From assembly GCF_000189635.1 (NCBI RefSeq), contig NW_002476365.1, forward strand, positions 698,268 through 762,267: a DNA stretch of 64,000 bases. The letters are read 5' to 3'. The notes beneath the pieces are model-generated. The model was not told the origin of the DNA. It made no database searches and saw only the letters and a program-made list of their open reading frames with translations. Source of the stretch: Tetrahymena thermophila SB210 (lineage: Eukaryota > Ciliophora > Oligohymenophorea > Hymenostomatida > Tetrahymenidae). This document shows, piece by piece, positions 26,923 through 58,486 of the stretch. A program made the translations under genes and the position numbers. Within the stretch, counting starts at the first letter, position 1. Each line of letters opens with the position of its first letter.

Positions 26923-28602
26923 TCAATATGGATACTATTTACATAAATTTTATTCTAATTATTAAATAAATGGAGATATTTCTGTATAATACTAATTTAA
27001 TTATAGATCTGGAGATGACACTTGCTGAATATTATATGCGTTGCAGCTGTTAAAGTGGCTATAAAAATCTATTTCGTCATTTTTAATGTGGTTTAAATAT
27101 CCATGATGTGCTCTAAGAGCACTACCAATACATGCTGAATCTTCAGATCCTTGTATAAAAACAGGGCATCCAAAAACATTAGAAGAAATTTGTTGCAAAA
27201 CTCTGTTTTTGCATGCTCCTCCTGTCAAAATCAGCTTAGATATATTATCTTTCAGGAAGTTTATTCTTAAAGATATTATTTTATATTCAAGAAGAAGTAT
27301 AATTTTTTCTACTGGCAAAATTTTAATAGGAGCATCGTTATTTACATTTTTTATTTCTTCTATTTAGTTTGGACAGTTTATAGGTGGTACTATTTCAGGT
27401 TATTAAAGAAAACAACCATAAAATCCTTTAGGCTTGTAGATATTAAAGTAATATTCTTCAACTTCTTCCCATGTCAACTAACTTTTTGAAATTATTTCTT
27501 CTCTCATCATACCTCCATTTTTCTGGCAAAGGAGCAAAAGATACTTTTTATTGATTAAAATAAATCTTTTTATTTTTAATCAAAATCGAGATTTTTAAGT
27601 TAATCAAAAAATAAAATATACCTAATCTGATCTAAGAGGAGAGCAAAAAATATGAATATTTGGGTCAAGTGATTTCTCTATATCATTTTCGTTAATAATA
27701 CCAAATAGAGTATCACTAGTACCTAAGCTTATTGCCAAGTAACTTGGATTCAGCAATCCCATTCCTACCATAGAGGCTAAATTATCTCCAGTGCTAGCAA
27801 TAACAAACGAGTCTTAACTAAAGATATTATTATACTTGTGTATGAAATAATCGTTTATTCTTCCAACACTTTACCAACTCTTTATAGGTTGATATACTCC
27901 TAGTTTTTTTTATAAATCAGGTACATAATCTACCATTTCTTAAATGTATTTTTTAGATTTTAAATCCATTAAATTAATCCCAGATGCATCACCATAGTCA
28001 ACAGAAATAAACTTTCCAATAAATATTTCAGCCAAAAATGAGCTTATTAAGCTTATATGGATAGTTTTATCGTAAATTTCTTTTTATAATTAGTATTTTT
28101 TAATAATTTAACTGAAAGAAAACCTTTCAAAAGCCCTACTTCCTGATTTTTTATGAATTTCTGTAAATTACTCAGAAATTTCTTTACACTAAGAAGATGT
28201 GCTAGAATCCATCCAAATAGGACATAAAATAGTTGCAAATGAATCTTTCAAATTTTCAATTAAATTTTTTTTAGAGTCATATAATATTTCCTTCTAATAA
28301 TAAACACTCCCATGTTGTTATCCAGATACAGATAAAGCAGATATTTTTTTAGCGAATTACTTATTTAGTTTTTCTAAACCTAGATCAAGAGCTCTGAGAA
28401 AAATGAGCACATCTTATTCTGCTGATTTGTGATTATCCTTTACTGTAAAATGAACAACTTCTTCATTTTCAAATAGTATATCACTAAAAATAATTTTATC
28501 ACGATATACTTCTATAGAATTCTCATCAAATACACATAATTTTAAAGACTAAGTAGACAAATCTAATCCTAAAAAGAAAAGATTTTCAATTTGTATATCC
28601 AT
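26923..28602 (-). CDS. XYLB: Xylulokinase (FGGY sugar kinase)
   Basis: Exons 27622-28602 and 26923-27543 (minus; 78-base intron) encode 533 residues, close to the 536 of human XYLB. The start MDIQIENLFFLGLDLSTQSL carries the N-terminal ATP-binding FGGY motif (GxDxSTQ). SALSVSGQQHGSVYY is the typical xylulokinase sugar-site segment, followed by CPIWMDSST. The C-terminal half has KLILTGGACKNRVLQQ, the adenosine-binding GGA motif, and then GSEDSACIGSALRAHHGY. The enzyme phosphorylates D-xylulose to xylulose 5-phosphate, feeding the pentose phosphate pathway, in the cytosol. The end (QYYTEISPFIQQLEQNL) was extended past two TAA/TAG codons to the TGA at 26923-26925. A decayed copy of its 3' end lies just downstream. 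Confidence 0.93.
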
Positions 28603-29714
28603 CGCGCAAAATAGTTGCTGTTTTAATATTAAAAACCGCCAAAAGTGATATAATTAAGTTAAATAATTTATCAATAAATTTGATAAAGATTTTATTATTA
28701 ATTAAAAACTTTTTTAAATAAATTATGTATCATTTTAATAAATAATCATTTTATAACAAATACTGTAAATTTTCATATATTAAGGCCACCTCGATTTCAG
28801 CTTAGATACCTCACTTATAGTTCTTACCTGCCTTAATTAAACCATATTTTCAAATTTTTAAAAACGGCCTATATATGAACCTTTAGAGTATATTATATTT
28901 AATTTTATATTGTTAAACCTAAAAATTTATTACATTTAATTTCATTTAATTTTTAAAACTAACTATGCTTTAAAAATCCACTTTTTGTTTGAATAAATTT
29001 TACAAAGATGAATTTTGATATTTAAAATATCAAAATAACTTGAAATGAGATATTTATTTTTTAATAATTATGAATTTATCTGATAAATTTCTGTAACTAT
29101 TTTTCTTTAAAAAATTTAATTTTAGATAAACTTATTATGCATTTTAGTTTAAAAAACAAAATTATAACAAATACATTTTCAAGAACTATTTATTTATTTA
29201 ATTTAATATTTTGAAAAAATAATTTTTATTGTTATATTCATTCAAATTGTTAAAAATAAATAAAAAATTTAGATAATAAAAATTAATTATTGAATTATCT
29301 AAATTTATCTGTTTATCTCCTAATTATTCAATTAATAAAATAATAATTTCATAAGAAGATTAAATTAAACCAAATTCTATTTTTACTTTTATTTATTACT
29401 ATTAAAGAGCAAAATTTTTAAAATTGTTATCAAAATCTTGAAAATGGTTTAAAAATTCCTTCCTTCATTGTAGTAAATAGTTTTAAAATAGTAGAATTGC
29501 TTTGACAAGTATAGTCAAAAATAGGCTAAATTTCTTTAGAGGTGAGGGTCTCTTTTTAATATATGAGATGTGAAGAAAATAAATTAATTGAGCATAACAA
29601 AATTTATATATCCTTTGTTTTGAAAATAATTGTATAAACTTTAAATTAACAAAAAAAAGTTAAATAAAAAAGAGCAAAAATAGATTAAATTTAAACCTAA
29701 AATAGTTAGCGTAA
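28603..29714. other. Intergenic, divergent promoters of xylulokinase and eRF1
   Basis: About 1.1 kb between divergent start codons, so it should hold both promoters. It is AT-rich apart from a GC-richer, possibly structured island at 28793-28870, listed separately. Confidence 0.5.
28793..28870. ncRNA. Possible structured RNA island
   Basis: A 78-base segment has much higher GC than its flanks, and its ends AGGCC and GGCCT can pair to close it. It contains CTTACCTG, but the rest does not match U1 or any RNA I know. It could equally be a conserved promoter element of eRF1 or xylulokinase. Confidence 0.2.
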
Positions 29715-32186
29715 ATGGAAGAGAAAGATCAACGTTAAAGAAATATTGAACATTTTAAGATCAAGAAATTGATGACAAGACTTAGAAACACTAGAGGGTA
29801 ATCAATCTATTTAATATAAAAAATTATTTTCTCTCTTTTCACTAACTTTCCATTTGCACCCACTGATTCAATATGTTATTTTTGTTTTGCTTGAATAATA
29901 ATAAAACTATATATAGCCTAGTTATCATTCATTTAATTTTAATATCTTATGGAATTGCAATTCTATATTTTGCTTAAGGATAAATACCTTAAAAATATGT
30001 GACATCAGTGGAGATTTTGCATAATTTGGAAGATTTAGGGATTGAAATTTTAGAAAATTTTAAGTAAATAACCTTTATAACTTTTAAAAACATAGTTCTG
30101 GTACTTCTATGGTTTCTTTGATTATTCCTCCTAAGAAGTAAATTAACGATTCCACAAAGTTAATCAGTGATGAATTCAGTAAGGCCACTAATATTAAAGA
30201 CAGAGTCAACCGTTAATCTGTACAAGATGCAATGGTTTCCGCCTTACAAAGTAAAATTATTATATTATTGGTTAAATATGTATATATGCTTGGCATTTCT
30301 TCAAACAACATCCACAAAAACTATTGAATGATGAAGATATTTTAAGCAAAATTTAAAAAATGAAAATAAATTTGCTGACTGGTCTTAAATGTTTAATTTA
30401 TAAAACAAAGGATTAAAATTATATCAAAGAACTCCCAATAATGGTTTGATTCTTTATTGCGGTAAGGTTCTTAACGAAGAAGGAAAAGAAATTAAGCTTT
30501 TGATCGATTTCGAACCCTACAAGCCCATCAACACCTCTCTTTATTTCTGTGACAGTAAGTTCCACGTTGATGAATTGGGTTCACTTCTTGAAACCGACCC
30601 TCCTTTTGGTTTCATCGTTATGGATGGTCAAGGTGCTCTCTATGCCAATCTCCAAGGAAATACAAAGACAGTAAGCTATATAAAATAAATTAACTATCAA
30701 AATTTTTTATTAGATGCATGCAAAACAAATAAACAAGGAAAGATTTAATAAGGGTCAATTAAAAATACGCTTAAAATTATTAAAAAATATTAACGAAAGT
30801 CATATTTTTTAGGGATTAATTAACAAATAAATATTTTGGCTTTTAAGAAAATCTTATTATATACTTTCTTTAATTAATAAGCATTTAATCCTATTTTCAA
30901 TCAAAGCATATTCTCAAAAAAAAAAAATACAAGCAAGCAAGCAAATATCTCTTTGAATATTTTTAAATAAAATCAAATTGAGTAAATATATTTCTTCTAT
31001 GTAGCAGAGTTTACTAAATTAGTAATATTACTACCAGTTTTTTAGTAAAAAATAAAACGAACTATCTTTCAAATGAATATATAAAAAAACATTATTCTTT
31101 TTAACATATAATCATTTCTCATTAATTAAAAAAGGTTTTAAATAAATTCTCAGTCGAATTGCCCAAGAAGCACGGTAGAGGTGGTCAATCATCAGTTCGT
31201 TTTGCACGTCTTAGAGTTGAAAAGAGACACAACTATCTTAGAAAGGTTTGTGAAGTCGCCACTTAAACTTTCATTTCCCAAGATAAAATTAATGTTTAAG
31301 GTTTAGTCTTAGCTGGTTCTGGTGATTTCAAGAATGAATTGAGTACTACATAGATGTTCGACCCTCGTCTTGCTTGCAAGATTATCAAGATTGTTGATGT
31401 TTCTTATGGTGGTGAAAATGGTCTTAACCAAGCTATTGAACTCGCTTAAGAATCTTTAACTAACGTCAAGTTCGTTTAAGAAAAGAACGTTATCTCCAAA
31501 TTCTTCGATTGCATCGCTATTGACTCCGGTACCGTTGTCTATGGTGTTCAAGATACTATGTAACTCTTATTAGATGGTGTTATTGAAAACATTCTTTGTT
31601 TCGAAGAACTCACTACCTTGAGAGTCACTCGTAAAAATAAAGTCACAGAATGTAATTATTTAGCATTTATTTCAATTTTCAGATTAGGTATTTGAACTCA
31701 AAAAGCAAGCAATCAAGCAAAAAAGCAAACAAACAAACAAACAAAAAATAAATTAAATAGCAAGAAAGAAAGAAAGAAAGAAATAAATAAATAAGGCTTT
31801 AATAGATGATACCAATAGAATCTAATAATAAAATCTTTTTCTACAAATAAATTTAATTAATTAAATGATTAAAAATATCTTTTATAAAATTAGAAATCAC
31901 TCATATATTCATTCCTCCTAATGAATTAAATAATCCTAAGCATTTCAAGGATGGTGAACATGAACTTGAAAAGATTGAAGTTGAAAACTTAACTGAATGG
32001 TTAGCTGAACACTACAGTGAATTCGGTGCTGAACTTTACTTTATTACTGATAAATCTGCTGAAGGTTGCCAATTTGTCAAAGGTTTCTCTGGTATTGGTG
32101 GTTTCTTAAGATATAAGGTCGATTTAGAACATATTGTTAACCCTAATGACGAATACAACTACGAAGAAGAAGAAGGCTTCATATGA
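29715..32186 (+). CDS. ERF1: Translation release factor eRF1
   Basis: Exons 29715-29797, 30096-30250, 30411-30670, 31135-31651 and 31894-32186 sum to 1,308 bases (435 residues), the normal eRF1 length. Domain 1 (stop recognition) begins [20 protein letters not shown]. It has [15 protein letters not shown] where most eukaryotes have TASNIKS, and [10 protein letters not shown] for the YxCxxxF motif. The catalytic loop [17 protein letters not shown] contains GGQ, which triggers peptidyl-tRNA hydrolysis. Domain 3 follows to the acidic end [15 protein letters not shown] and TGA. Several Gln codons in the gene are TAA or TAG. Exons use many C-ending codons (GTC, TCC, GAC, AAG) unlike the neighbours, as in a strongly expressed ciliate gene. 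A tRNA-Gln(UUA) lies 293 bases downstream. Variant motifs at both decoding sites fit UGA-only termination. Confidence 0.98.
31700..31800 (+). repeat. Simple-sequence tract in eRF1 intron 4
   Basis: The fourth eRF1 intron (31652-31893) holds AAGC/AATC-like repeats, then (CAAA)n, (GAAA)n and (AAAT)n runs one after another. A shorter (AAGC)n run lies in intron 3 near 30930. These are probably replication-slippage microsatellites. Confidence 0.8.
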
Positions 32187-32479
32187 TCAATATTTTTATT
32201 TCTAAATTAAATTTTACATCTAAAAGATGTTTTAAAACATTCTGCTTAAGCACTCTAAAATATTAAGTTTATATTAAAGATTTAATATTTTCTGTAATTC
32301 ATTTCATTATGTACTATAGTATTATTACTCTTTGTATTTTGAGAGCTTTAAGCTTCCTTAAAAAAATTCATCTTTTTCTTCATGATAAATTAATTATTAA
32401 TTAATTTGTTGTATTCTCTAATTTTAATTTGCAAGGGCCTTTATATCCTCCCAAAATAATATAGTATTATTAGTTATCC
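32187..32479. other. eRF1 3' flank and tRNA-Gln upstream region
   Basis: About 290 bases of AT-rich DNA with a TTAATTATTAATTAA palindrome near 32390 and a short GC-richer CCTCCC segment at about 32445. No gene is seen. Confidence 0.4.
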
Positions 32480-32551
32480 GGTTCCATAGTATAGTGGTTA
32501 GTACTGGGGACTTTAAATCCCTTGACCTGGGTTCGAATCCCAGTGGGACCT
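32480..32551 (+). tRNA. tRNA-Gln(UUA): tRNA-Gln(UUA), reads UAA as glutamine
   Basis: The 72-base cloverleaf is intact. The acceptor stem GGTTCCA pairs with TGGGACC (one G-U pair) and the discriminator is T. The anticodon stem GGGGA/TCCCT encloses the loop CTTTAAA, so the anticodon is UUA. The T-arm reads CTGGGTTCGAATCCCAG. An anticodon UUA decodes UAA, a stop in the standard code. The body agrees with the ciliate Gln isoacceptor known from Tetrahymena. A run of T just after the 3' end (from 32554) is the expected RNA polymerase III terminator. Internal A-box and B-box (GGTTCGAATCC) promoters are present. Confidence 0.97.
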
Positions 32552-32869
32552 GATTTTTTAAAAATAAAAAACAATTAACAAATTTAATAATTAATACCTA
32601 TCAAAAGTTAATTAAGGCGCAAATCGAACAGAATTTTAGAAATTTCAAGATTTATAAATCTTGTTAAGCCATCAAAAATCACTTATCTATGATCAAAATT
32701 GGATTTATTGTAGATCCAGAATAGATATTTAACATAAATGTAACTTTCAAATAAGCGATTCAAAGTTATAAAAGCACATTATTTGTAATAAACAATATAC
32801 TGCAAACATAAATAACAAAAATCAGTATATCTATTATTTCAATACAAATATAAGAATAATAAACAATAA
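32552..32869. other. Intergenic, AT-rich
   Basis: Stretch between the tRNA terminator and the degenerate repeat array. No gene is visible. Confidence 0.4.
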
Positions 32870-33935
32870 ATATAAATACACTAATCATTGAAGGATGATA
32901 ACTTAATTTTAAAAATAGATAGTAAAACGTTAGCTAAAAATTATTTTGTTATGAGGAGTAAAATTTAATTAAATCAACCAATCATCTGAATTTATTTTAA
33001 ATTGATTGATATAAATTTGTTAAAAATATAATTTTTGTTGTCTATCAAATTGTTATTATTATTAACAACTCAATAGGAATATTAATGTATCAAAGAATAA
33101 ATTTTAAAGAAATTGAAAATAAAAAGAAGATAAATTTTTAGAGAAGTTTGATATAAATTATTTTCTTATGACAAATAATATTTAAATCAGTCAATCGTTA
33201 TTCTTTATTTTAAATTGATAAAATATATGCTCAAAATTTTGTTTGTTTTCGCTATTAATTTATATTTATTACTAATAAATTTTATAAAAATTTCAATACA
33301 AGCAATTGTATTTAAAGAATAAATTTTTTTAAAATTAATATTGATAGTAGAAATTTTTTGTAGAAAATTAATTGTGAGGATTTTATTAAAATAATTTAAT
33401 TTAAATTTAGTTCATCATTCAATCATTCAAACATCATTACTTTTATAATTGGTAAAAAATTATTAAAAATATATTTTTAAGTTTATTATATTGATTAACT
33501 AACATATAACTAACATTTTAATACAAATATAACTCTATCAAAGAATAAATTTTAATTTAAAAATATTAAAATTGAGATGAGATAGGTTATAATTAAAGAT
33601 AAATAGTGAAAATTTTGTTAAAATTATTTTTTTTTAAAGAGTAAAATAAAATGAATTGATTCAGTCAATCATTCTCCTTTATTTATTCTAAATTGGTAAA
33701 AAATCGATTAAAAAAGTAGCTTTTAAAATTTATTATTAATATTTGTTCAATCTTTATTCCTAATTTAGTTATGCATTTTATAATTCTTTTTCTTGATTTT
33801 ATAGTTTTATTATAATCATTTATTATGACATAAAAAGAGAGGATAAGCAGTTTAGAAAATAATTAGTAAAAATATTTCAATAATTATTTTATCATGTGAA
33901 TTCATTTAATTGTATCAATCAATCATTGACCTTTA
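32870..33935. repeat. Degenerate tandem array, about five units of 220-260 bp
   Basis: A block order repeats: GATAGTAAAA-like, AATTATTTT, then TCAGTCAATCATT-like, TTTATTTTAAATTGATAAA, and CAAAGAATAAATTTT. TCAATCAT-type cores lie near 32975, 33187, 33420, 33657 and 33917; ATTTTAAATTG-type cores follow each. Copies are heavily diverged. The last unit overlaps the stop codon and C-terminal codons of the secreted poly-Gln gene, so it has been absorbed into a coding region. Confidence 0.6.
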
Positions 33936-35541
33936 TTTTAAATTAAAAAATAATTGACTCAGAATAAAGATTTTATTATTTATTTAGAATTTATTATTAT
34001 TATTTCTATTAATCTTTAGTTTATTATTGTTAGTCTTTTCCTTAATTTATTTACTATTCTGTATCTTATTATTCTTCTTCCTCTTTATCTTTTTGTTGCA
34101 ACTAATCGTATTTTAATTATTTTTGATCTTACTATTGCTGTTAGTGTTGATTATTGTCATTTATTTAATTTATATCTTATATTAGCATACTTATTTAAAT
34201 TATAGACATTGAATAAAATTATGCTATTTAAAATTTTATATGCAATGACCTATCGTCTTTATCCCAAAATGTTTCGTTTTGATCTACATAGGCGGTAGAG
34301 TCAAAGATTTATCCTTTCTATGTTTTAGAGTATAATTTTTGTAGTGAAAGTTTCTTAGTATTTGTTGAGTCTTTAAACCAAACTCTTAAGAATATAAATT
34401 CACCCTAAATATAATTATTAGTCTCTCTGTAAGTTTTCCAATCTGATTGGTATTAAAACCCATAGATGTCATAATCTTAAAGTATAATACATTTTGTAAG
34501 GCTTTTGCAGTGGTAAAATGGTTATTGATATACATCTTAAGTAAATGTTTATACAGTTTATCCATCAAAATAAACATTAAGAAACCATCTATGGGTTCTT
34601 ACAATTTTATTACTATTCTTTATGTTCAATTCAAATAAAATTTTGTTTCTTTAAGTTAAATCTTCGTTTTTTTTCTAAAAAATAGATATATTCTCAAGAG
34701 CTTAAAGTGGAATTTTAATTCTAGTACTACCCTATGCCAAGCCAGGTATATCTTATAATAAAATATTATTTTGCAAGTTATTTAGATCTTATTATTGATT
34801 TTAAATTAATAATTAATTTTCTGCAGAAGAGTTTCTAACTAGATATTAAAATTATAAGCTATCTCTACAATTATTCAAATTAAATTAGCTATGTTCTGTA
34901 TTTATTATAATATCTTAGATAATAAAATCTTGCTATTATTAATTTACATCTACTTAATTTTCTTTTTAGAAATAGCTAAAAATTTTTATTTCAAAATACT
35001 TAGCTGTTAGCTGGATCTCAGTATCGCATCTATTAGAAGTTTTATCTTAAGTAATAGGTTTGCATACTAATGGGTGTAATTAACTCATATAATAACCTTC
35101 TTTACACTAACAAGCTCTGCTATAAAAGTTAACTTATTAATTTTAATCTTTGCAAGCTAAGCATTATTTTTAATTACATTGTTCACAACTATTATGGCAT
35201 TCTTTTTGATTCAATTCATCCTCATCTAAATTTTCATCTGCATGATAGCCCTTAAAAAGAAACTTATTTCGCTTAAAAAGCTTATCAATATTATTTTTTT
35301 AAGTTATATTTGTATAGTTTTCTTAATTTATTATAGTAAAATTTTGTTCACCATCATCTTTATTCTTATTGTCTTCAAAATATTATTAATGCTAATCAGT
35401 TGAATTGAAATGACTGCTATTAACATCATAAGATTTAAACCTTTTGTTTTTTTTATCTTCTTATTTATGCTTATAATGGCATTTAATTTAATCGATTTGT
35501 TAAGCTAAGAGTATCAACAAAAAGAAAATTTTCATATTCAT
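33919..35541 (-). CDS. Secreted Cys-rich protein with poly-Gln tail
   Basis: A single exon of 540 residues runs from ATG 35541 to TGA 33919-33921. The signal peptide is MNMKIFFLLILLAQQIDQIKC. A furin-like cysteine cluster at about residues 125-175 reads ECHNSCEQCNQKQCLACKD, then RACQCKEGYY and HPLVCKP, a CxxxCxxC pattern typical of ciliate surface and secreted proteins. The middle (RTHRWFLNVYFDGQ, FYHCKSLTKCIILQDYDIYG) looks like a beta-rich domain. The last ~100 residues are dominated by Gln, mostly written as TAA and TAG. No second TM segment is seen, so it is probably secreted. A second in-frame ATG lies two codons downstream. The 3' end merges with the repeat array. Confidence 0.8.
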
Positions 35542-40000: not shown

Positions 40001-40747
40001 AAATACATCATAAAATAATTATCAAATAAAAAATAAAATTAACTTTGTTTTTCAAGCATTAAATCTTCGAGAAACAAAAAATATTTTTTTCATCTATAGT
40101 TAAATTAAATATTAAAAAGCTTAAAGGGCTTATTAGTTTACTTATCCTTTATGTAATAAATATTCTATAATAGAAATCTATTAAATTATCAATTAAATAA
40201 ATTTTTTATTGAAGGAAGATTATATTTTTATAAATTTTAGTTACAAAAAATAATTAAAACTTATCTGAGATATCTGTTTTAAACACATAGATTAAACAAT
40301 TAAATAATAAATATTTGCTGTAAAAAAATAAAATATAATTGAAACTATTAAATAATATAACTTGTTACAATTCTTGTATGTAGCCTTGAAAAAGGCAGTA
40401 CCCTAGGGTACTATATATATAATTGAATTTACTAATTTTTTAAACTCTAATTTAAATAGAATTTGTTTGTCTAATTTATATTTGATTAAATCCAAAATAT
40501 AATTTATATTTTTTTACAAACACAAAAAAAATAGTAAATATCTTAAATTTGTTTTTATCTTCTCATTAATTTTTTTGTGATATGCTTTTATTATTTAAAG
40601 AAGATTTTTTGGATTATATTTTGTTTTTTTTTATTTATCAAAATTTATTTAAATTGATATTTTTATCTAGCTTATTAACTTATTGGCTGGCATCAGATTA
40701 TAAAATATAATTAATTTTTATTTATTTATTTAAAAGTGAAAAAAAAT
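40001..40747. other. Intergenic with a hairpin-plus-palindrome element
   Basis: AT-rich 3' flank of the membrane-protein gene. The only notable element is the hairpin and palindrome at 40383-40412, listed separately. Confidence 0.4.
40383..40412. other. GAAA-loop hairpin next to a 16-bp perfect palindrome
   Basis: GCCTT-GAAA-AAGGC (40383-40396) can form a 5-bp stem with a GAAA tetraloop. It is followed at once by the perfect 16-base palindrome AGTACCCTAGGGTACT (40397-40412). Both stand out from AT-rich flanks. It could be a structured RNA end, a protein-binding site or a terminator-like signal; nothing decides between these. Confidence 0.45.
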
Positions 40748-40820
40748 TGGAGAACCTGGGCATTGATCCCAGTGCCTCTCGTATGCTAAACGAGCGCTCT
40801 ACCATTTGAGCTAGATCCCC
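40748..40820 (-). tRNA. tRNA-Ala(AGC): tRNA-Ala(AGC), copy 1
   Basis: On the minus strand a 73-base cloverleaf begins GGGGATC and ends GTTCTCC plus discriminator A. The anticodon arm CTCGT-TTAGCAT-ACGAG gives anticodon AGC. The G3-T70 pair, the usual alanine identity element, is present. The sixth acceptor pair is a T-T mismatch. No intron. Confidence 0.95.
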
Positions 40821-40888
40821 AACACAAAAGTCTTCTTTATTAAGAATCATTATACCATAGATTTAATATAAAATGTAAAAATAAAAAA

Positions 40889-40961
40889 TGGAGAACCTGG
40901 GCATTGATCCCAGTGCCTCTCGTATGCTAAACGAGCGCTCTACCATTTGAGCTAGATCCCC
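40889..40961 (-). tRNA. tRNA-Ala(AGC): tRNA-Ala(AGC), copy 2
   Basis: Identical in sequence to copy 1 over all 73 bases, same strand. It lies 68 bases from copy 1, and the flanks are unrelated AT-rich DNA apart from the last few bases. Confidence 0.95.
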
Positions 40962-41030
40962 ATCACAACTTTATATCAATTTATTTTTTTCGTGTATTTT
41001 AGATTTTAAATAAATTTAAAAATTAAAAAT

Positions 41031-41103
41031 TGGAGAACCTGGGCATTGATCCCAGTGCCTCTCGTATGCTAAACGAGCGCTCTACCATTTGAGCTAGATC
41101 CCC
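41031..41103 (-). tRNA. tRNA-Ala(AGC): tRNA-Ala(AGC), copy 3
   Basis: Third identical copy, same strand, 69 bases from copy 2. Internal A- and B-boxes are the same as in the others. Short T-runs on the minus strand after each copy would serve as terminators. Confidence 0.95.
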
Positions 41104-42286
41104 AACACAACAAAAGTATTTAAGAATTAAAATTTAATTGCTTTTTAATTTCAGATACTTTAATTAAATATTTTGATAGTTTTGCAACTAAAAAAAGAAA
41201 ATTACAAAAGAAATCCAAAAAAAAAAACCATTAATAAAATTTCTATATTTAAAGATTATTTATGAAAACTTACTTTTTTATTCTTAATTAAAATTTTTAA
41301 TCCCAAAAACAAAGCTAATCCATGATTAACAATAAAATACATTGTTTATTAATACTCTTAAAAAAATTATTGAATTCTGAGAATTTATAAACTTATTTTT
41401 CTATATTGGCTATTACAAGGACAAATAAGATTAATTAAAATTTTCATATTGTTTTTTAAGAGTTTTTTTGTGAAAAAATAATTCAGCTAATAAATTGTTG
41501 ATTATTCATGTATTTTTTATTAATATTTACTCTTAAATATTTTATTGAATTCTGATAATTTATACGTTTATTTTTCTATGTTTGGCTATTATATAAAACT
41601 GAGATCAAATAAATTTTATTTTGAAAATTTTCTTACTAATAAAAAATATATTTTTACTAAAATAATTCAACTAATGACTAATAATTGATATATTATTTCT
41701 TATTTCTTATCAAATATTGTATTTAATTCTGGATATTTAATAAATTTTACCTTCTAAAATAATTTCCTTAGTAAAAAATATTTTAAACTAAAATTAATTT
41801 ATCTAATCTTTGATTCTTTATAAATTTTTTATTCATTCTTCTCAGTATCTTATTCAATTGTAATTATTAGCTTGTTAATTGTTTAATTATTAAAAAGTTT
41901 GAGATCAAATACATTTTATTTTCAAATATCCTTTTTTTAAAATAGGACTACTGAAATAAATACATACATGAATTATGAACTGGATAAGATATCGTTTTGA
42001 AAAAATGATAATTCTAAATTTATTAGCTGGTTTTTATCTATAATTTTTAAAAAATTATTAGTATCTTTCTGATCTCTTCTTATTCATCAATATTCTATTT
42101 GACAAAAATTCATTAAAACTTATTTTGATTATAGACTGATATTAAATACAATAGTTTATAGTTTGTTTCTATAATTTTTTAGAAAAGAGATTTAATAACT
42201 ATTATTCTACACAACATACATAAAAGTTTAAAAAGTCGTTTCTAATATTAGTTTAAATATAAAGTAGGTTTTACCACTAAGAAAAT
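41104..42286. other. Intergenic upstream of the HECT gene
   Basis: About 1.2 kb between the tRNA-Ala cluster and the HECT start. Its middle holds the degenerate array listed at 41320-41990. The last ~290 bases are the likely HECT promoter, with no clear motif. Confidence 0.4.
41320..41990. repeat. Degenerate tandem array, about four units of 170-190 bp
   Basis: Units share the order TTATTGAATTCTGA, AATTTATA, ACTTATTTTTCTAT, TTGGCTATTA, GAGATCAAATA, ATTTTATTTT and AATAATTCAACTAAT-like. The TTGAATTCTG core occurs near 41371 and 41543, with a weaker TTTAATTCTGG near 41730 and CTTATTCAATTGTAA near 41855. GAGATCAAATA occurs at 41601 and 41901. Divergence increases toward the right. Confidence 0.55.
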
Positions 42287-58402: not shown

Positions 58403-58486
58403 CCGAACTTAGCTCAGTTGGAAGAGCATCGGACTGTAAAGTTTGTAGTCATCCGGTGGTCCCCGGTTCGAACCCGGGAGTTCGGA
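58403..58486 (+). tRNA. tRNA-Tyr(GUA): tRNA-Tyr(GUA) with 11-base intron
   Basis: The acceptor stem CCGAACT pairs with AGTTCGG, discriminator A. The D-arm GCTC/GAGC and T-arm CCCGGTTCGAACCCGGG are perfect. The anticodon arm TCGGA/TCCGG encloses CTGTAA plus an 11-base insert (AGTTTGTAGTC) at the canonical position after base 37, so the anticodon is GUA (Tyr). Total length is 84 (73 + 11). A T-rich terminator follows at once. Introns in tRNA-Tyr are common in eukaryotes. Confidence 0.95.

Follow-up and report, generated by a model that had tools for sequence, protein, structure and literature searches.

The gene for the release factor eRF1 and a gene for a glutamine tRNA with the anticodon UUA, found side by side in Tetrahymena thermophila, are in all probability two ordinary, independently transcribed genes that are neighbours by chance. 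The parts of the pair are already known individually, and chance neighbours made of known parts are the most likely description of it. The window, meaning the whole stretch of 64,000 nucleotides that was analysed, is the final 64 kb of contig C172 (762,267 bp) in an assembly of 101.0 Mb and 445 contigs. CCCCAA repeats open C172 and GGGGTT repeats close the window; given these telomere repeats at both ends, C172 is taken as a single complete macronuclear chromosome of 762 kb, whose right end is about 32 kb from eRF1. A telomerase stretch in the same assembly is identical to PDB chain 6d6v_A, the T. thermophila enzyme, over two segments of about 100 and 134 residues, the unmatched parts presumably being intron; this match and the two eRF1 genes of the assembly, with the motifs NIKD and SIKN, point to T. 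thermophila. The features at the locus are as follows.

27604..28935, minus strand: ORF for an FGGY-type carbohydrate kinase, the upstream neighbour of eRF1 and head to head with it (code-6 ORF; Pfam FGGY_N, E 1e-12)
29715..32186, plus strand: eRF1 gene (eRF1-1, NIKD type), 5 exons, 435 aa, stop UGA (spliced translation, Pfam, PDB)
29715-29797, 30096-30250, 30411-30670, 31135-31651 and 31894-32186, plus strand: exons of eRF1 (spliced translation, code 6)
32187..32479, no strand: gap of 293 bp from the eRF1 stop codon to the tRNA (sequence)
32480-32551, plus strand: tRNA-Gln, anticodon UUA, with the same sequence as 26 other copies in the genome (ARAGORN, Rfam, cloverleaf)
32554..32559, plus strand: six-T run, 2 bases (GA) past the tRNA, a probable terminator of the Pol III type judging by its sequence
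33919..35541, minus strand: long code-6 ORF downstream of the tRNA, which may be a gene (ORF list; without a Pfam match)

The first-pass annotation had placed the end of eRF1 at 32186 and the start of an intact tRNA-Gln(UUA) at 32480 on the same strand, and both the coordinates and the identities hold (spliced eRF1 and Pfam for the former, ARAGORN and Rfam for the latter). The introns of eRF1 run from GT to AG and measure 298, 160, 464 and 242 bp; when the gene is read with code 6 its terminal codon is TGA, after which no further TGA stands in frame until codon 52 past this stop. Short runs of AAGC/AAAC/AAAG tetranucleotide repeats were seen in introns 3 (30671-31134) and 4 (31652-31893). Tetrahymena eRF1 is taken to terminate translation at UGA only. 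The spliced gene has TAA at 9 and TAG at 1 of its 21 Gln codons, and these 10 in-frame codons within its own gene would be an indirect sign of a factor that acts at UGA but ignores UAA/UAG. Pfam domains eRF1_1, eRF1_2 and eRF1_3 are all matched above their cut-offs, eRF1 chains in the PDB align across almost the full length of the product, and GGQ is present in the spliced protein, so that it has the three eRF1 domains together with GGQ. NIKD replaces NIKS, and YxCxxxF is retained as YFCDSKF, which is the Tetrahymena type of motif. NIKD is also the motif printed for T. thermophila eRF1-1 in the available text of PMC2613156; the protein described there shares NIKD, YxCxxxF (YFCDSKF) and GGQ with the eRF1 of the window and no difference was seen, as judged from the described motifs rather than from the published sequence.

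The tRNA at 32480-32551 scores 67.9 bits against the Rfam tRNA model and forms a complete cloverleaf, a canonical fold with a UUA anticodon that is read as tRNA-Gln(tta) in the ciliate code. It is 82% identical to three tRNA-Gln(UUG) genes on C39, an identity that supports, but does not prove, charging with glutamine. Its two-base trailer fits the very short pre-tRNA trailers described for T. thermophila in the available part of PMC9705548. ARAGORN found no other tRNA gene in the window within 8 kb of this copy. Further along the window, three tRNA-Ala(AGC) genes stand in tandem on the minus strand at 40747-41104 (ARAGORN). A tRNA called by ARAGORN with a "gtaa" anticodon at 58403-58486 was considered as a frameshift tRNA and rejected; it is read as a tRNA-Tyr(GUA) gene that has an intron of 11 bases, and of this gene the genome has 17 identical copies, itself included.

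A second eRF1 gene is also present in the genome.

C167:545557-546954: second eRF1 (L002, L041), a single open frame of 465 aa from the chosen start codon, with SIKN in place and GGQ kept

It is 32% identical to the eRF1 of the window (SIKN against NIKD). As a new gene it was rejected, since it fits the published description of eRF1-2; the available text of PMC2613156 gives 31% identity between T. thermophila eRF1-1 and eRF1-2, with the motifs NIKD and SIKN. A putative Dom34/pelota-like gene (L001, L040) was seen at the start of C64, where Pfam eRF1_1 matches at 543-926, and telomere-like repeats lie near it, as seen in the translation.

The position of the tRNA, 293 bp downstream of eRF1 and on the same strand, could be read as a sign of local action by the tRNA gene upon eRF1. 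A Pol III barrier at the tRNA might, for instance, influence the 3' end of the mRNA or its amount, in a crude feedback between the reading of UAA/UAG and stopping at them. The synthesis of eRF1 itself depends on the reading of UAA/UAG, at the 10 of 21 Gln codons noted above. However, in-frame TAA/TAG codons are not peculiar to this gene, the second eRF1 having them at 32 of its 47 Gln codons, and the tRNA is followed by a T run of its own and belongs to a family of many identical copies. Such local action is therefore considered highly unlikely.

The size of this family was estimated by an assembly-wide search with the 72-base tRNA as the query. At least 41 matches were obtained, a lower bound as 40 of 53 candidates were scored; they comprise 29 UUA genes, 8 CUA genes, 3 UUG genes and 1 partial copy without an ARAGORN call, and these numbers are likewise lower bounds. 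It had been remarked earlier that Tetrahymena has several such tRNA genes, and the minimum of 29 UUA and 8 CUA genes bears this out. Among the 29 UUA genes, 27 are identical over all 72 bases (the window copy included), one has a single difference and one is 90% identical. When copies less than 10 kb apart are merged, the UUA and CUA genes together (at least 37) occupy 19 places on 15 contigs, and the UUA genes alone occupy 15 places on 12 contigs among the matches listed. One stretch of C94 (L038, C94:538801-546500) holds 13 tRNA-Gln genes (12 UUA, 1 CUA) in about 5.2 kb, plus the partial copy, all on one strand, and four tRNA-Gln genes lie together on C10. A run of at least five Ts begins 0 to 6 bases past the tRNA in 30 of the 30 copies whose flanks were fetched (28 UUA and 2 CUA, from the 41 matches). 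A genome-wide search with RF00005, in which 63 of 6697 candidates were scored, gives no tRNA density, and the published count of 710 tRNA genes (PMC3341644, in part) served for a single side calculation.

The available part of PMC3341644 gives 710 tRNA genes for T. thermophila and 144 predicted tRNA genes for the macronuclear genome of Ichthyophthirius, including 6 tRNA-Gln genes for UAA and 2 for UAG. The two genomes have in common the anticodons, the multiple copies and an excess of UUA over CUA, and the cloverleaf form of the ciliate UAA/UAG-reading tRNA-Gln genes treated there is also that of the window's copy; the genome studied here has more copies (at least 29 and 8, against 6 and 2). 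Adjacent tRNA genes in Tetrahymena are mostly for the same amino acid, according to the portion of PMC2888827 available. The groups on C94 (13 genes) and C10 (4 genes) are alike in this respect, whereas the copy beside eRF1 differs in being a single gene.

These numbers bear directly upon the suggestion that the two genes reflect co-inheritance on one macronuclear chromosome. In this explanation, selection would maintain the linkage of eRF1 and a UAA-reading tRNA on one chromosome, keeping their dosage in step through amitotic division. Both genes do lie on a single chromosome, bounded on either side by telomere repeats. However, a second identical UUA copy is present on C172, on the opposite strand and 273 kb from the copy beside eRF1, and at least 35 UUA/CUA genes are on other contigs; the suggestion is not supported. 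A macronuclear chromosome carries all of its genes together, and therefore a distance of 293 bp would be no better than one of 273 kb; a shared chromosome does not require such closeness. Further, eRF1 is accompanied by just 1 of at least 29 UUA genes (2 of 29 if the copy 273 kb away is counted) and any co-variation would be diluted by 36 other UUA/CUA genes. Since the tRNA beside eRF1 is one of at least 37 such genes, the ratio of tRNA to eRF1 would barely be shifted and co-inheritance would explain little. It is very improbable that dosage accounts for the pair.

The origin of the copy was approached through its surroundings, by comparison of 1.5-kb flanks with the tRNAs masked, for 30 of the 41 matches (those fetched, the other 11 being left out). 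Against the other 29 loci, the flanks at eRF1 gave a sole match, about 690 bp past the tRNA, of 103 bp at 76% to C417. The lack of a close match suggests that the copy did not arise by recent local duplication from any of those 29 loci. Flank resemblance was seen between C419 and C389, and between C169 and C94. Apart from the 103-bp match, the distinct flanks would be compatible with the copy being a relic. In that case the first UAA-reading tRNA would have originated or inserted next to eRF1 at the time of the code change, and the present copy would mark that site. However, seven other single copies (L006-L009, L011, L013, L014) are equally without a flank match, and nothing marks the copy beside eRF1 as older because its sequence is identical to that of 26 others. 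The relic explanation is accordingly given very little credence.

The neighbours of the other copies were also considered. When 18 of the fetched tRNA-Gln loci were scanned with an approximate codon score, coding segments were identified at 10 of them (the eRF1 locus and 9 others), with neighbour distances measured to the scored segments and not to true gene ends. Among the segments listed, 13 flank the other loci, and 10 of these were put to Pfam: 4 had no match and 6 matched, to DAGAT, P450, leishmanolysin, LRR (below the cut-off), Lips and a CAF1 ribonuclease. No translation factor was found among the 10 segments tested in this way.

Had linkage of the two halves of the code change been favoured, other genes involved in it might show it as well. 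The Gln/Glu-tRNA synthetase domain PF03950 has 3 matches, on C228 and C13, and PF03143, a domain common to eEF1A, eRF3 and Hbs1 whose 8 matches were treated jointly, is found on C284, C214, C188, C269, C186 and C65; all of these are contigs without a tRNA-Gln match among the matches listed. ARAGORN found no tRNA in the 7 kb around eRF1-2 and none in the first 10 kb of C64, the contig of the Dom34-like gene. The second eRF1 and two CUA genes are on a common contig, C167, at a separation of about 231 kb. Within this genome, and with a tRNA list that is a lower bound, the other code-change partners looked at were not close to such tRNAs. Chance adjacency had been offered earlier as one option, and it is judged to be the correct one, with the tRNA genes at 19 scattered places and the other partners looked at not close to them.

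It is clear, nevertheless, that chance must be weighed against the closeness of this particular pair. For 15 places (UUA) to 19 places (UUA+CUA) across 101 Mb, one prespecified gene is expected to have 0.9e-4 to 1.1e-4 such loci at 293 bp or less on either side, a figure that is about doubled, up to 2.2e-4, if half of the genome is assumed to be open to tRNA genes. Copies so dense that a neighbour within 300 bp would be expected, a circumstance that had been proposed as refuting any meaning of the pair, are thus not what the genome holds, the expectation being about 1e-4. For any one gene, the probability of lying nearest to one of the 19 places comes to about 1.4e-3 to 1.5e-3 (assuming 25,000-27,000 genes), and to about 0.03 if some 20 comparable partner genes, an assumed number, had been open to a similar comment. 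Since the expectation for a pair fixed beforehand is near 1e-4, the chance reading must rest on the post hoc choice of the pair, and this choice of one pair from many possible pairs weakens the case for a meaning.

The value near 1e-4 for a prespecified pair counts against chance, as does the presence of eRF1-2 on the same contig as two CUA genes. A further reading is that the pair is a linkage conserved since the code change, with the factor that ignores UAA/UAG and the tRNA that reads UAA held together in the germline. A scan of viral contigs with eRF1 turned up no relative. In favour of chance, the available text of a 74-genome survey (PMC2888827) has tRNA gene positions turning over fast in eukaryotes generally and synteny poor, the synteny part apparently concerning animals. 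Within the titles and abstract openings of the openly licensed papers listed, no prior report of eRF1 adjacent to tRNA-Gln(UUA) was found. Conserved linkage is held to have only a very small chance of being right.

The preferred explanation, chance, would involve two separate units. eRF1 is a spliced protein-coding gene, presumably transcribed by Pol II, whose product would end translation at UGA only. The tRNA-Gln(UUA) gene would be a separate Pol III unit, as the T run suggests; it belongs to a dispersed family in which copies at scattered places stay identical. The adjacency would then result from chance placement, together with the selection of this pair for remark. Were the two genes linked in other species too, this would be physical evidence for both halves of a genetic-code change travelling as a unit. 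The pair as it stands is one pair of neighbours among many, and mainly documents the copy number and the scatter of the tRNAs that read UAA and UAG.
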